Part shown: positions 33,317 to 46,828 of the stretch, piece after piece | Layout of the letters: each line of letters begins with the position of its first letter | Numbering within the stretch: position 1 is the stretch's first letter | Assembly: GCA_022824225.1 (NCBI GenBank) | Contig: JAJEAH010000036.1 | Location: 1-52,522, forward strand | Reading direction: 5' to 3' | DNA length: 52,522 bases | Origin: Chloroflexota bacterium | Lineage (GTDB): Bacteria; Chloroflexota; UBA11872; VXOZ01 | Program-made: the position numbers and the translations under genes | The notes under the pieces: model-generated | Told to the model about the DNA's origin: nothing | What the model saw: only the letters and a program-made list of their open reading frames with translations | The model's database searches: none

Positions 33317-33663
33317 AGTCAGGCGCCGGGCAACGACACCATGGTGTAGGGGCAACCCTTGTGGTTGCCCGCGCCGGAGGACGAGAAGGGCAGCCGTGGG
33401 GTTTGCGCATAGGATAGGAATGGATAGCAACCCGTGTGGTTGCCCACATGGCGGGCAAAGAGGGCAGCCACAAGGGCTGCCCCTACGCGGGATGGGCGCG
33501 GGCGTAGGGGCGGTTCGCGAACCGCCCCTACGTGGTGAATGCCCCTACACGGCATGGGCGCCGGGCCAAAAAACCTGCGGTATCGGCGGGAGGCAGCGCT
33601 TGACTGCTCGCGCAGGTCCCGATGCGGCGGCCCTAATGCGCCTGCGTCGGCTACACTGTCCCA
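33317..33663. repeat. Repeat insertion inside the ABC importer operon
   Basis: The 347 bases between the binding protein and the permease are made largely of dispersed repeats: GTAGGGGCAACCCTTGTGGT at 33346-33371, CAACCCGTGTGGTTGCCC near 33428-33445, GGGCAGCCACAAGGGCTGCC at 33462-33482, and a perfect 30-bp palindrome at 33503-33532 whose arms read CGTAGGGGCGGTTCG and CGAACCGCCCCTACG. These hairpins may uncouple the binding-protein gene from the two genes downstream. Confidence 0.75.
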
Positions 33664-35699: not shown

Positions 35700-35841
35700 T
35701 ACCCTTGCCGCGTCCGAGCGCGCGCAAACGGGCAAACCCGGAAGTGGCGCTGCCCGCGTTCGCGCGGCGTTTGTGCGCGGCGTTTGCGCGCGGCGTTTGC
35801 GCGCGGCGTTGCCGGGCGCCTCACCCGCGGTCTTTGCGCAA
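35700..35841. repeat. 13-bp tandem repeat after the ABC operon
   Basis: GCGCGGCGTTTGT/C is repeated about four times in tandem at 35762-35813 (starts at 35762, 35775, 35788 and 35801). It lies between the ATPase gene and the candidate PHO-box array. No gene is seen. Confidence 0.65.
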
Positions 35842-35880
35842 GTTAATGCCATGTTCACGCGTGGATAACGTGCCCCTAAC
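35842..35880 (+). promoter_or_regulatory. Candidate PHO box, four 11-bp direct repeats
   Basis: Hexamers GTTAAT (35842), GTTCAC (35853), GATAAC (35864) and CCTAAC (35875) recur at exactly 11-bp steps, with unrelated five-base spacers. This is the geometry of PhoB/PhoP-type response-regulator sites (direct repeats about one helical turn apart; GTTCACC in Streptomyces, TTAACA in Bacillus). It sits about 300 bases upstream of the PhoB-like gene, and a second array of the same kind precedes the next genes (38852). The function is inferred; the spacing is seen directly. Confidence 0.6.
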
Positions 35881-36176
35881 ATGGTAGGCGTACTATCGGA
35901 ATTGCCACCTGAGGCCCACTGTTTTGTGGCCTTGCCCCTCGCCATAGGGTGGTATTCAAGACCGCCCTATGGCGAACCCCCCCTCCATCGAACGCGCAGC
36001 CACATCCCTAGCGGCGGCCTGCTGCAACGCCTGCGCCGCTAACGCGGACCCACCACGCCAGACGGCTGACCTCCAACATGCGCTCGGGCCCAGGCCGCCC
36101 TGCTCAGCGCGGCAAGCGTGTGACATAATAGAGCCGGAGCGGCCGCGGGAAAGACGAGGTCGGCCCAACCCGCCGA
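35881..36176. other. Leader region of the phoBR unit
   Basis: About 300 bases between the candidate PHO box and the response-regulator gene. It is presumably the promoter and leader. GGTGGTATTC-AAGACCGCCCTATGG near 35949-35970 echoes CCATAGGGTGGTATT as a loose inverted repeat. No gene is seen. Confidence 0.35.
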
Positions 36177-36905
36177 ATGCCATACATGTCTGAGGAGCAG
36201 CCATTGCCACGCGAAAAAGTGCTCATCATCGAGGACGACGACAATCTGCAAGAGGCGCTGCGGTATCGCCTCGAGCAGGACGGCTATGAAGTGCACAGCG
36301 CGATGGATGGTGAACAGGGGCTGGACCTGGCGCGGGAGGCGCAACCGGACCTCATCGTGCTCGACATTATGATGCCGGTGCTGGACGGCTTCGAGGTCTG
36401 CCGCATTCTGCGCCAGGAGACTGCCGTGCCCATCATCATACTCACGGCAAAAGGCGAAGAGGTCGACCGCGTCGTCGGCCTGGAGTTGGGTGCGGACGAT
36501 TACGTGGTCAAGCCGTTCCACACCCGCGAGTTGCTGGCCCGCATCCGCGCGGTGCGCCGCCGCTCGCGTCCCGGCGACAACGCGCTCCCCATCGGAGAGG
36601 CGGTAGACGTACTGAACGCCGGCGACCTGCAGCTCAATCTTACCCGTCACTCCGCCACCTTAGGCGAGTGCGCGCTGGCGCTGAAACCCAAGGAATTCAG
36701 TTTGCTGGCGCTGCTGATGTCCGGCCGCAACCGGGTATTTACCCGCGACCAGATTCTCGAGCGTATTTGGGGCTTTGACTGGGTGGGTGACAATCGTACT
36801 GTAGACGTGCACGTGCGGCGGCTGCGCGAGAAGATCGAGGCAGACCCCAGCGAACCAACTCGCATCGTAACCGTGCGTGGCGTTGGCTACCGGTTTGAGG
36901 GATGA
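36177..36905 (+). CDS. phoB: Response regulator, OmpR/PhoB family
   Basis: A 242-residue two-domain regulator. The receiver domain (residues 13-130) has the acidic pair in IIEDDD, phosphoacceptor D63 in LIVLDIMMP, T/S switch region IIILTAKGE and the lysine in VVKPF. The C-terminal winged helix (150-242) has LALKPKEFSLLALLMSGRNRVFTRDQILERIW and VDVHVRRLREKIE, typical of PhoB/OmpR. It pairs with the kinase that overlaps it by four bases (ATGA). PhoB identity rests on phoU and polyphosphate genes nearby. The start is uncertain: ATG 36177, ATG 36186, or TTG 36204, which has the best spacing to GAGGAG. Confidence 0.92.
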   Translation: MPYMSEEQPLPREKVLIIEDDDNLQEALRYRLEQDGYEVHSAMDGEQGLDLAREAQPDLIVLDIMMPVLDGFEVCRILRQETAVPIIILTAKGEEVDRVVGLELGADDYVVKPFHTRELLARIRAVRRRSRPGDNALPIGEAVDVLNAGDLQLNLTRHSATLGECALALKPKEFSLLALLMSGRNRVFTRDQILERIWGFDWVGDNRTVDVHVRRLREKIEADPSEPTRIVTVRGVGYRFEG

Positions 36906-38680
36906 GGCTACCCAAGTCGCTGCATTGGCGCATCACGCTGGCCTACACCGCGTTGATCATACTCACGCTGGGTGTCGCCAGCTTCTATCTCGTCACGTTC
37001 GTCCGTAGCACGTACCTGACGAATCTCGAAACGCGTCTGGAGCAAGAAGCGCGCCTGGTGGCCGAAGCGACCGCCCGCTACTTTCCCGCGCAAACGGACG
37101 CCGCTGCCCTGCAGGCCGCCAGCGAGCGCATGAGCGCCACCATCTCCGCCCGGGTTACCCTCATCGCGCCGGACGGCGCGGTGCTCGCCGATAGCTGGGA
37201 GGACCCGGCAAGCTTGGCGAACCAGGCGCAGCAGCCGGAGGTGCGGCGCGCACTGGCCGCCGCAGTGGGCAGCCATACTCGCAGCGACGCCGCGGACGAG
37301 GACCTGATCCACGTCGCGGTGCCCATAGTGGTGGACGAGCGCGTGCTGGGCGTCGCGCGGGTCGCGGAACCGGTGGCCCAGGTGCAAGAGATTGTGAACC
37401 GCAATATCGCCGTGGTCGGCCTGATCGGCATCGCCGGCGGCGTGCTGGCGGTGCTGATTGGCTTCGTCGTGGCCTCGCGCACGTCCCGGTCCATCGGCGC
37501 GCTCACCGAGGGCGCCCGCCAACTGGCCGCCGGGGAGCTGGACTACCGCGTGCCGGTTCCCGCGCGCGGCAGCCACGAGACCCAGGAGCTTGCCCAGGCG
37601 TTCAATCGCATGGCCGCTTCGCTGCGCGACCACGTGCGCGATCTTTCCGTGGAGCAGGGCAAACTGGCGGCGCTGCTCAACACTCTGGCGGACGGCGTGG
37701 TCGTCATCGACGGCAGCGGCCAAGTCGTGCTCCTAAACCGCGCCGCGGCACAGATTCTCACTATCGACGGCGACAGCGTCTTGGGCCGCCGCTTCGCGGA
37801 AGTCGTCCGCGACTACAGCCTCCAACAGCTCGTGACGCGCTGCGCTGAGCAGCGCGAGGTGCAGCACGGCGAGGTGGAAATACCCCAGTGGCGGCGGTAC
37901 CTGAGCGCTATAGCAACCCCCCTGGCCGACCAAGATGAGTCGAGCGTGTTGCTCACCATGCATGACTTGACCCGCATCCGCCAGGTGGAGACGACGAGAA
38001 AAGAGTTCGTGAGCAATGTATCGCACGAATTGCGCGGCCCGCTGGCGGCGGTAAAAGTGCTCGTCGAATCCCTGGCCAGCGGCGCGCTGAAAGAGAAGAA
38101 GCGTTCCAAGGACTTCCTGAAACGCATCGACGGCGAGGTGGACCGCATGACGGCCATGGTGAACGAGTTGATGCGGCTGTCGCGCCTGGAAAGCGACCAG
38201 GCCGGCCTGCAACTCGAACCGCTGGACCTGGGTCCGTTCCTGGCCGCGTTACAAGAGGAACACCAGGCGCGCACGGCCAAGCGCGGCATCGCCCTCGACC
38301 TGGACGTGCCGGACCGCCTGGCCCGGGTACGCGGCGATGAGGACAAGCTGCGGCAGGTTTTCGATAACCTCTTGAGCAATGCCGTCAAGTTCACGCCCGC
38401 CGACGGCCGCATCGCCCTCTCGGCCCAACAGGAAAACGGTGTGGTCCGCCTGCGCGTGGCGGATTCCGGCGTCGGCATCCCGCGCAAGCACCTGCCCCAC
38501 ATCTTCGAACGCTTCTATAAGGTCGATCGGTCGCGCCACAGCGAGGGTTTCGGCCTGGGCCTGGCCATCGTCAAGCACATCGTGCAAGCCCACGGCGGCC
38601 GCATTCACGCGGAAAGCGTTGAAGGCCAGGGCACGACGTTCACGGTCTCCCTCCCGGTTGAGACCGACGAAAGTGGCTAG
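36902..38680 (+). CDS. phoR: Sensor histidine kinase, PhoR-like
   Basis: A 592-residue kinase. A transmembrane segment at residues 12-33 and another at 169-190 enclose an extracytoplasmic sensor of about 135 residues. A HAMP domain follows (192-245), then a PAS-like domain (250-345) and the dimerisation domain with phosphoacceptor H375 in SNVSHELRGPL. The ATPase domain has DNLLSNAVKFTPADGR (N box), VADSGVGIPRKHLPHIFERFY (G1/F) and GFGLGLAIVKHIVQAHGG (G2). It is overlapped with and co-translated after the response regulator. A PAS between HAMP and HisKA is the PhoR-type arrangement. Confidence 0.94.
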   Translation: MRLPKSLHWRITLAYTALIILTLGVASFYLVTFVRSTYLTNLETRLEQEARLVAEATARYFPAQTDAAALQAASERMSATISARVTLIAPDGAVLADSWEDPASLANQAQQPEVRRALAAAVGSHTRSDAADEDLIHVAVPIVVDERVLGVARVAEPVAQVQEIVNRNIAVVGLIGIAGGVLAVLIGFVVASRTSRSIGALTEGARQLAAGELDYRVPVPARGSHETQELAQAFNRMAASLRDHVRDLSVEQGKLAALLNTLADGVVVIDGSGQVVLLNRAAAQILTIDGDSVLGRRFAEVVRDYSLQQLVTRCAEQREVQHGEVEIPQWRRYLSAIATPLADQDESSVLLTMHDLTRIRQVETTRKEFVSNVSHELRGPLAAVKVLVESLASGALKEKKRSKDFLKRIDGEVDRMTAMVNELMRLSRLESDQAGLQLEPLDLGPFLAALQEEHQARTAKRGIALDLDVPDRLARVRGDEDKLRQVFDNLLSNAVKFTPADGRIALSAQQENGVVRLRVADSGVGIPRKHLPHIFERFYKVDRSRHSEGFGLGLAIVKHIVQAHGGRIHAESVEGQGTTFTVSLPVETDESG

Positions 38681-38851: not shown

Positions 38852-38879
38852 GTTTACCAAATGTTCACCGTGCGCTAAC
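38852..38879 (+). promoter_or_regulatory. Second candidate PHO box, three 11-bp direct repeats
   Basis: GTTTAC (38852), GTTCAC (38863) and GCTAAC (38874) are spaced by exactly 11 bp, the same geometry and closely similar hexamers as the array at 35842. It lies about 90 bases upstream of the zinc-ribbon gene and 0.8 kb upstream of phoU. It would place these genes under the adjacent PhoB-like regulator. Confidence 0.6.
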
Positions 38880-38966
38880 GCGCTCGACAAGCCGCCCGGC
38901 TATGCTCAACAGTGAAGCAGTGAACTAACGTGAGGCGTGCGCGGGTGGCGCACGGTGAGGAAGGCG

Positions 38967-39251
38967 GTGGCTGACGAGACAATGGCCAAAGCGACGGTAG
39001 CGGCGCCCAGGGAGAGCGCCAAAGCGCGCACGCGGCAAGCGCCGGACGCCGGGAGGCGCAGATGGCTGTGCCCCTACTGCGCGCTGGACGTGTACCTTAT
39101 CCAGGACCGGGTGCGAGACTGCATCGTTCGACATCCCAAGATCATCGTGCGCGAAACCCAGTACTGGCGCTGCCCGGTGTGCCATGCGGTAGCCGATTGC
39201 GAGTTCGTGGACCACGCGGAACACATCGAGTACATTGCAAGCGACGGGTAG
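38967..39251 (+). CDS. Small zinc-ribbon-like protein in the pho cluster
   Basis: A 94-residue protein if started at GTG 38967, which has GAGGAAGG just upstream; ATG 38982 and an upstream GTG 38937 are alternatives. The C-terminal half has two CxxC knuckles, CPYC and CPVC about 40 residues apart, and a further isolated Cys and His-rich end, which together would bind one zinc. The N-terminus is basic and probably disordered. I do not recognise the family. Its place between phoR and phoU, behind a candidate PHO box, suggests a role in phosphate response, but that is inference. Confidence 0.7.
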   Translation: MADETMAKATVAAPRESAKARTRQAPDAGRRRWLCPYCALDVYLIQDRVRDCIVRHPKIIVRETQYWRCPVCHAVADCEFVDHAEHIEYIASDG

Positions 39252-39686: not shown

Positions 39687-40349
39687 ATGATACGCACCAA
39701 CCTCGAGCAACAACTGGAAGAAGTCCAGGACTCTGTCCTCGCGCTGGCCAGTATGGTGGAAAAAGCCATTACCCACGCGGTGGAAGCCTTGCGGGACCGC
39801 GACTTGGAGGCTTCCCGGGCGGTCGTCGCATTCGACGACGTGATCGACAGGGGTCGCTTCGACATCGAGGAGCGGTGCGTAGACCTGCTCGCCACGCAGC
39901 AGCCGGCTGCCGTGGACCTGCGCTGGGTGATTGCCCTGCTGCACATCGCGGTTGAGCTGGAGCGCATGGGCGATTACGCCGAGGGGATCGGCAAGATCAG
40001 TCTCATGATGGGTGACGCGCCGCCTCTCAAGCCCCTCATCGACATTCCCCGCATGGCGGAGATGTCCATCGCCATGCTGCGCGAGAGCATAGACGCCCTG
40101 GTGACGCGGGACGTAGACCTGGCCCGGCGGGTCTGCGCAGCCGACGATGAGGTGGACGCCCTCCACGAGCAGACCTACCACGAGTTGCTCTTCTACATGA
40201 TCAAGGACCCGAGAAGCATCCAGCGGGCGACCTACTTGCTGTGGGTCACCCACGACCTGGAACGCACCGCCGACCGCGCCACCAACATTGCCGAGCGGGT
40301 AATCTACCTGGTCACAGGCGAGATGCTGGACCTGAACCTATCGAAATAG
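39687..40349 (+). CDS. phoU: Phosphate signalling protein PhoU
   Basis: A 220-residue all-helical protein made of two PhoU repeats. The first has the metal-site pattern ALRDRDLEASRAVVAFDDVIDRGRFDIEERCVDLL and the partner helix DLRWVIALLHIAVELERMGDYAEGI; the second has DLARRVCAADDEVDALHEQTYHELL and YLLWVTHDLERTADRATNIAERVIYL. PhoU links phosphate transport status to PhoR kinase control. The start ATG 39687 follows AAAGAGG. The Pst transporter genes with which phoU usually travels are absent from the window. Confidence 0.95.
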   Translation: MIRTNLEQQLEEVQDSVLALASMVEKAITHAVEALRDRDLEASRAVVAFDDVIDRGRFDIEERCVDLLATQQPAAVDLRWVIALLHIAVELERMGDYAEGIGKISLMMGDAPPLKPLIDIPRMAEMSIAMLRESIDALVTRDVDLARRVCAADDEVDALHEQTYHELLFYMIKDPRSIQRATYLLWVTHDLERTADRATNIAERVIYLVTGEMLDLNLSK

Positions 40350-45697: not shown

Positions 45698-46828
45698 CTA
45701 GGCTTCCACGGCGGCGCACGCCGCCGCCAGCGCCGCTTCACAGTCGGCCACGTCCGCTTCCGTATTGTAGAAGTGAGGCGAGATGCGCACCCGGCCCTCC
45801 TTGTACCAGACGTGAACGTTGGCGGCGGCGAGCGCGTCGCCGATGCGTTGGTAGTGGGGAGTTTCGAACGACACGATGCCGGCTCGCTGGCTGGAGTCGG
45901 CGGGCGTGAGCGGCGTGATTCCCAAGCGCGCCAGCCCAGCGCGCACGCGCCCCGACAGTTTCAGCACGCGCGCCGCGATGTAGTCCATGCCCACGCCGCC
46001 CAGGAAGCCCAAGGCCGCGTGCAGCGTGTAGACTGCCGTATAGTCCAGCAAGCCGGTCTCGAAGCGCCGGGCATCGTCGTGTAGGGCGTAGTCGAGGGTA
46101 TCGACAACTGCCGGCGGGTCCACCGTGCCCCGCCAACCGGCGTAGATGGGCTGCACCGCGTCCAAGCGGTCCCGGCGGCAGTAGAGCACGGCCAGCCCAT
46201 GGGTGGCGAGCAGCCACTTGCGGGTGCAGGCGGCGATGAAGTCAACCGCGCCCACCGCAAGCGGCGCCGCGCCCACCGATTGGGAGGCGTCCACCAGCAC
46301 CAGCGCGCCGTGGGCGTGGGCGCAGTCCGCCGCGGCCTCCAGGTTCGCCCGATAGCCGGACCGGTAGCTGACGTGGCTGAGGACGACCAGCCGGGTGCGG
46401 TCGTCGACGTGGGCGGAGAGCGCGTCCGGCGTTACCACGCCGCCCTCATGCCGCACCAGCCGCACGTCCACACCAAAGCGCCGGCCAAGATGCAGGCACG
46501 CGATGATGGAACTGGGAAACTCCAGGTCCGTGACCACAATGTTGTCGCCCGCCGTCCAGGGCAGGCCGAATAAGACGGCGTTTACGCACTCGGTGGTGCT
46601 GGAAAGCAGGGCGATTTCCGAGGCGCTGCAGCCGATGAAGCCGGCCATGCGCCGGCGGCAGTCGGCTTCCACCGCCTGCATCTCGGTAGGTGTGATCGCT
46701 CCCTGCAGTTTCTCCTCAGTGTAGCGCTGCAACGCCCCCGCCACCGTGCGCCCCAGGCACGATCCCGCCGCCGTATTGAGATACGCCCGGCCCCGCAAGC
46801 CGGGGAATTCATCGCGCCAGTCAGTCAT
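45698..46828 (-). CDS. Class V aminotransferase-fold PLP enzyme
   Basis: A 376-residue fold-type I PLP protein of the class V group (cysteine desulfurase/isopenicillin N epimerase-like). Evidence: AYLNTAAGSCLGRTV at the N-terminus, SSTTECVNAVLFGL (phosphate-site loop), LSHVSYRSGYRANLEA, LVDASQSVGAAPL with the cofactor-binding aspartate, and FIAACTRKWLLATHG with the PLP lysine. There is no conserved catalytic cysteine loop of true desulfurases, so lyase, epimerase or aminotransferase activity on an unknown amino acid is likely. The start ATG 46828 has AAGGAG nine bases upstream; ATG 46837 would leave no spacing. Confidence 0.87.
   Translation of the reverse strand: MTDWRDEFPGLRGRAYLNTAAGSCLGRTVAGALQRYTEEKLQGAITPTEMQAVEADCRRRMAGFIGCSASEIALLSSTTECVNAVLFGLPWTAGDNIVVTDLEFPSSIIACLHLGRRFGVDVRLVRHEGGVVTPDALSAHVDDRTRLVVLSHVSYRSGYRANLEAAADCAHAHGALVLVDASQSVGAAPLAVGAVDFIAACTRKWLLATHGLAVLYCRRDRLDAVQPIYAGWRGTVDPPAVVDTLDYALHDDARRFETGLLDYTAVYTLHAALGFLGGVGMDYIAARVLKLSGRVRAGLARLGITPLTPADSSQRAGIVSFETPHYQRIGDALAAANVHVWYKEGRVRISPHFYNTEADVADCEAALAAACAAVEA

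Follow-up and report, generated by a model that had tools for sequence, protein, structure and literature searches.

The four hexamers GTTAAT, GTTCAC, GATAAC and CCTAAC at positions 35842-35880 of the window (the whole stretch of 52,522 nucleotides that was analysed) most likely form a four-unit PHO box, here called P1. It would belong to a distal promoter at which a PhoB-type regulator is predicted to bind and to activate its own genes, phoBR. The autoregulatory part of this reading is reasonable, although less certain than the PHO box itself. The features of the phoBR region, in window coordinates, are as follows.

35842..35880, forward strand: PHO box P1, four units (GTTAAT, GTTCAC, GATAAC, CCTAAC) with an 11-bp period, 5' of phoB
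35891..35896, forward strand: TACTAT, the putative -10 hexamer of the distal phoB promoter, exactly 10 bp past unit 4
35897..35985, forward strand: conserved, presumably transcribed element 3' of P1, in the three genus genomes that have the phoB array
35939..35975, forward strand: hairpin with a 15-18 bp stem, two compensatory pairs among three sequences and no U-tract
36118..36133, forward strand: proximal promoter-like block GTGTGACATAATAGAG, resembling an extended -10 promoter, ahead of phoB in 5/5 genus genomes with phoB
36204..36905, forward strand: phoB, an OmpR/PhoB-family response regulator, with a GAGGAG ribosome-binding site and a TTG start
36902..38680, forward strand: phoR-like histidine kinase (sCache-like, HAMP, PAS, HisKA and HATPase domains)

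As the preliminary description had claimed, the hexamers can be read in the sequence at 35842-35847, 35853-35858, 35864-35869 and 35875-35880, with an exact 11-bp period; the complete string occurs only once in the genome. P1 thus has the make-up of a PHO box, i.e., at least two direct repeats of 7 conserved and 4 less conserved bp. Scored as four GTTAAC-like units spaced 11 bp apart, P1 yields 19 of 24 matches, the best value in the 52.5-kb window, and no equal array was found in 60 dinucleotide shuffles. With a matrix derived from other sites only, P1 scores 25.6 vs a maximum of 18.0 in 40 window-sized simulations, and none of 3000 simulated versions of the local intergenic region reached the score that such an outside-derived matrix gives P1. 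By raw period-11 self-similarity of any hexamer, P1 is ordinary, with approx. 40 window positions equalling it; it is thus the unit sequences, rather than the period alone, that make it significant, and the case for P1 rests on unit identity and on where else such units occur. P1 can also be folded through a CCATGTT/AACATGG stem. This stem is not kept in the congeners G002 and G004, and DNA binding is thus the better explanation for the conservation of P1 there. An open reading frame starting at ATG 35881 was rejected as a gene, as it overlaps the -10 element and, judged by eye, is frame-shifted in G002. Directly 5' of P1, a 13-bp unit (CGCGGCGTTTGCG) is present in tandem copies (35763-35802).

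Similar arrays are found at phoU and pstS, together with the following features.

38852..38890, forward strand: second PHO box (GTTTAC, GTTCAC, GCTAAC, CGACAA; 11-bp period), 5' of the zinc-ribbon ORF and phoU, in 6/6 genus genomes
38901..38906, forward strand: TATGCT, the putative -10 hexamer of the phoU promoter, exactly 10 bp past unit 4
38982..39251, forward strand: small zinc-ribbon protein of 89 aa with CPYC and CPVC motifs, between the PHO box and phoU
39687..40349, forward strand: phoU, which passes TIGR02135
L134:2657-2695 (G000:C22, about 46656-46694), on the strand opposite to pstS: pstS array, with congener loci L135-L139

The second array was located by the scan of the same window, with units at 38852, 38863 and 38874, between phoR and the small ORF that precedes phoU. 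The phoU array of the five congeners typically reads GTTCAC-5-GTTCAC-5-GCTAAC-5-GTACAT. Upstream of pstS, a four-unit array with an 11-bp period is present in all six genus genomes, on the strand opposite to pstS; its consensus in most of them is GTTCAT-5-GTTCAC-5-GnnnAC-5-GTTCAT, and in the own genome it lies approx. 367-405 bp before the start of pstS. A pair, TTTATC-5-GTTAAC, is conserved between this array and pstS, again in 6/6 genomes. Throughout the 15 arrays, position 5 of the unit is A in 60/60 units, and information is concentrated at positions 1-6 and 11; it is low (0.1-0.3 bit) at positions 7-10.

The pattern GTTHAY-N5-GTTCAY-N5-GNNHAC has nine exact matches in the six genus genomes, all of them upstream of phoB, phoU or pstS; the own genome has three in all, a single one per gene. 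If one mismatch is allowed, there are 16 matches in the six genomes (12 at phoB, phoU or pstS) vs 4 for a reversed-pattern control, and a scan with three mismatches was too permissive (17 matches vs 16 in controls). Because the sites were already known when this pattern was drawn up, what it contributes is the lack of matches elsewhere, and the independent test is provided by matrix ranking. The unit matrix was built from the phoU units of the congeners and the pst pair, excluding the phoB arrays and the own phoU site, and was applied to both strands of 409 kb of the own genome. The top two four-unit arrays were the pstS array and, in second place, P1, and the best two three-unit arrays were the phoU array and P1. 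Near-top scores away from phosphate genes were obtained at L165:4733 (C9, at a ccdA-like gene) and L173:17002 (C18, inside a gene). In a scan of periods from 7 to 16, the phosphate-gene sites were recovered at 11 only. A motif scan near phosphate genes had been set beforehand as the check on which the PHO-box candidate could fail; enrichment was found at phoB, phoU and pstS, both in the nine of nine exact matches and in the matrix ranks. The candidate is thus supported by the phoU and pstS arrays (6/6 each), by the exact matches and by promoter geometry. As a separate observation, the array at L165:4733-4760 (minus strand, G000:C9) is a good one of three units, ATTAAC-5-GTTTAC-5-GCTATT; it is flanked by genes for a ccdA-like membrane protein and a molybdopterin oxidoreductase-like protein, with no phosphate gene near.

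E. coli pho boxes lie approx. 10 bp upstream of the -10 element. In the genus studied here, unit 4 is followed at exactly 10 bp by a TA(n)3T hexamer in 3/3 phoB arrays and in 6/6 phoU arrays, so that the spacing to the putative -10 element is constant in 9/9 cases. At phoB, the hexamer is TACTAT in the own genome and TAGTAT or TACCAT in G002 and G004, respectively; at phoU, it is TATGCT or TACGCT. Unlike at phoB and phoU, no such hexamer was seen after the opposite-strand pstS arrays. Strict spacing between the pho box and the core promoter has been reported for PhoB-activated promoters (PMC10294691). The fixed 10-bp link from unit 4 to the -10 hexamer indicates that P1 faces phoB and is part of a promoter of the activator type.

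The following mechanism may be proposed. Upon phosphate limitation, the phosphorylated regulator (encoded from 36204) would bind the four direct repeats head to tail, substitute for a -35 element and recruit RNA polymerase to TACTAT (35891-35896). Transcription would start near 35903, and the transcript would pass the conserved hairpin into phoBR, so that positive autoregulation from the distal promoter would be added to basal expression from the proximal promoter (36118-36133). Moreover, the phoB product would activate the twin promoter at 38852, and with it the zinc-ribbon gene and phoU, as well as pstS elsewhere in the genome.

P1 is found at phoB in 3/5 genomes (the own genome, G002 and G004) and is absent in G001 and G003; the distal promoter is therefore not essential in the genus. 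In the two congeners, P1 and its -10 hexamer persist with substitutions, and the first two units of P1 in G002 drift to TTAAAC and ATTCAT. P1, the -10 hexamer and the hairpin element are whole in the same three genomes and are present or absent as one unit: the unit is absent from G001, G003 and 35 other searched genomes of the class, and was not detected in G005 (69% complete). As it occurs as a single copy in the genome, a multicopy repeat was rejected as its identity. Across the genus, phoB probably has a basal proximal promoter, to which some species would add a distal one with a PHO box. The preliminary description had suggested autoregulation of phoBR, and this suggestion is reasonable with some qualifications: the array does face phoB, but it is distal, with 323 bp separating the end of P1 from the phoB start (TTG 36204) and a distance that varies among species, a strong, conserved hairpin and the more widely kept proximal block (5/5) intervene, and P1 is missing from 2/5 genomes. 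For these reasons, autoregulation is held with less certainty.

The same data bear on another reading, according to which P1 is a true PHO box whose promoter yields a short phosphate-regulated RNA of approx. 75-80 nt ending at the hairpin, phoBR being transcribed from the proximal promoter. Sequence conservation runs from P1 past the -10 hexamer through the hairpin and then stops, and the hairpin contains two compensatory pairs. Furthermore, the element is all-or-none, its distance to phoB is variable (133, about 200 or about 400 bp from its end to the proximal block among species), and the separate promoter-like block stands beside phoB in 5/5 genomes. However, the sequence lacks the U-tract that would follow the hairpin in a canonical intrinsic terminator, conservation of the 5' stem is not clear, and no credible Rfam match was obtained; a hit to the sRNA family cold-seep-1 (E 0.3, 20 vs 125.8 bits) was dismissed as chance. 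In addition, the comparison comprises three sequences only, and the element always adjoins phoB. This reading is considered possible but doubtful. A related proposal, equally tentative, is that the segment from 35903 to approx. 35976 is a genus-specific phosphate-regulated RNA element, either a small RNA or an attenuator that would tune phosphate-induced transcription into phoBR.

The start of phoB was placed at TTG 36204 on the basis of a GAGGAG and a reading frame conserved in five genomes, and ATG 36177, the start of the longest ORF, is probably wrong. The encoded regulator scores 238 bits against TIGR02154 (NCBIfam PhoB), below the cut-off of 296.2; it is therefore named PhoB-type by its neighbourhood and the binding-site evidence, and not as a member of TIGR02154. 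The MtrA and WalR/YycF models score slightly above the PhoB model, also below their own cut-offs. The closest solved structure is RegX3, which is listed among phosphate systems (PMC4415409). The linkage to phoR, phoU and pst that is expected of PhoB is observed: the phoR-like kinase and phoU are adjacent here, and the best matches of the regulator in sister families adjoin pstS and phoU (e.g., G034:C1 93275, 96218, 100345). A sister family and two genomes from farther away in the phylum also carry TTAAC-like repeats directly 5' of the phoB homologue; in more distant relatives, GTTTAC-ATTAAC-ATTAAC lies directly upstream, at -67.

It might be argued that P1 is bound by another OmpR-family regulator with PHO-like units, or that PhoB binds it as a repressor. 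The near-equal scores of the MtrA and WalR/YycF models would allow for the former, and regulators of the OmpR/PhoB family generally bind direct repeats (PMC4832192). Nevertheless, such arrays stand at phoU and pstS across the genus and, at exact match, nowhere else except at phoB, and the 10-bp spacing to the -10 hexamer fits activation, so that both variants appear unlikely. Far less probable still is that AT-rich hexamers in a GC-rich genome came to form P1 by chance: its ordinary self-similarity and its absence from two of five genomes at phoB would be compatible with chance, but the 0/3000 local simulations, the top ranks with the independent matrix, the phoU twin with its identical -10 geometry and the conservation in two congeners speak against it.

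PhoP boxes of Bacillus subtilis consist of TTAACA-like repeats with units approx. 11 bp apart. P1 resembles them in its TTAAC-like units, as do the ATTAAC units of the more distant relatives; it differs in lineage and promoter layout, and the genus consensus is GTTCAY. The PHO box of Streptomyces coelicolor PhoP is composed of 11-nt direct repeat units with the unit GTTCACC, and the arrays described here share with it the 11-nt units, the GTTCAC core, the presence of several units per operator and the location at pst and pho genes (PMC4415409). In contrast to the S. coelicolor box, the last unit base is less fixed here (C or T, then variable), the units at phoB drift to nnTAAC, the phylum is different, and a fixed 10-bp link to the -10 element was measured. 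In E. coli, the pho box contains CTGTCAT units, and the autoregulated phoB promoter has a second, repressing site (PMC4415409, PMC10294691, PMC6194859). Both systems have tandem 7+4 bp units that precede a -10 element in front of the gene for the regulator itself, whereas the unit sequence differs and the box is here distal (323 bp), with the hairpin and an additional proximal promoter-like block before phoB. PhoP of M. tuberculosis binds in tandem with a strict 4-bp spacer, and more tightly to three or four units (PMC4832192).

PHO boxes of 7+4 bp units and autoregulation of phoB are already well known (PMC4415409, PMC10294691, PMC6194859), but the switch seems to be undescribed in this lineage, which its relatives suggest to be Chloroflexota, since no description of a PHO box in Chloroflexi was found in the literature searched. 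Two features are unusual: the hairpin element, and a zinc-ribbon gene that is restricted to the genus and lies between the second PHO box and phoU. The genus consensus, (T/C)GTTCA(C/T) with an 11-bp period and its end 10 bp short of the -10 element, is concrete and testable, and it would allow the phosphate regulon to be read from metagenome-assembled genomes of uncultured members.

The zinc-ribbon gene, with a conserved start, is present in all six genus genomes and in 0/55 other relatives, and its product matches no Pfam or NCBIfam family above the cut-off. Its linkage to the PHO box makes this uncharacterised gene a likely member of the phosphate regulon. Two minor observations concern other loci. 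A second PhoU, 54% identical, is encoded at G000:C86:6039-6692, and G002 likewise has a second match. Finally, a perfect palindrome, TAGGGGCGGTTCGCGAACCGCCCCTA, is located at 33505-33530 and recurs intergenically in the genus (L132, L133, L134), resembling a REP-type element.
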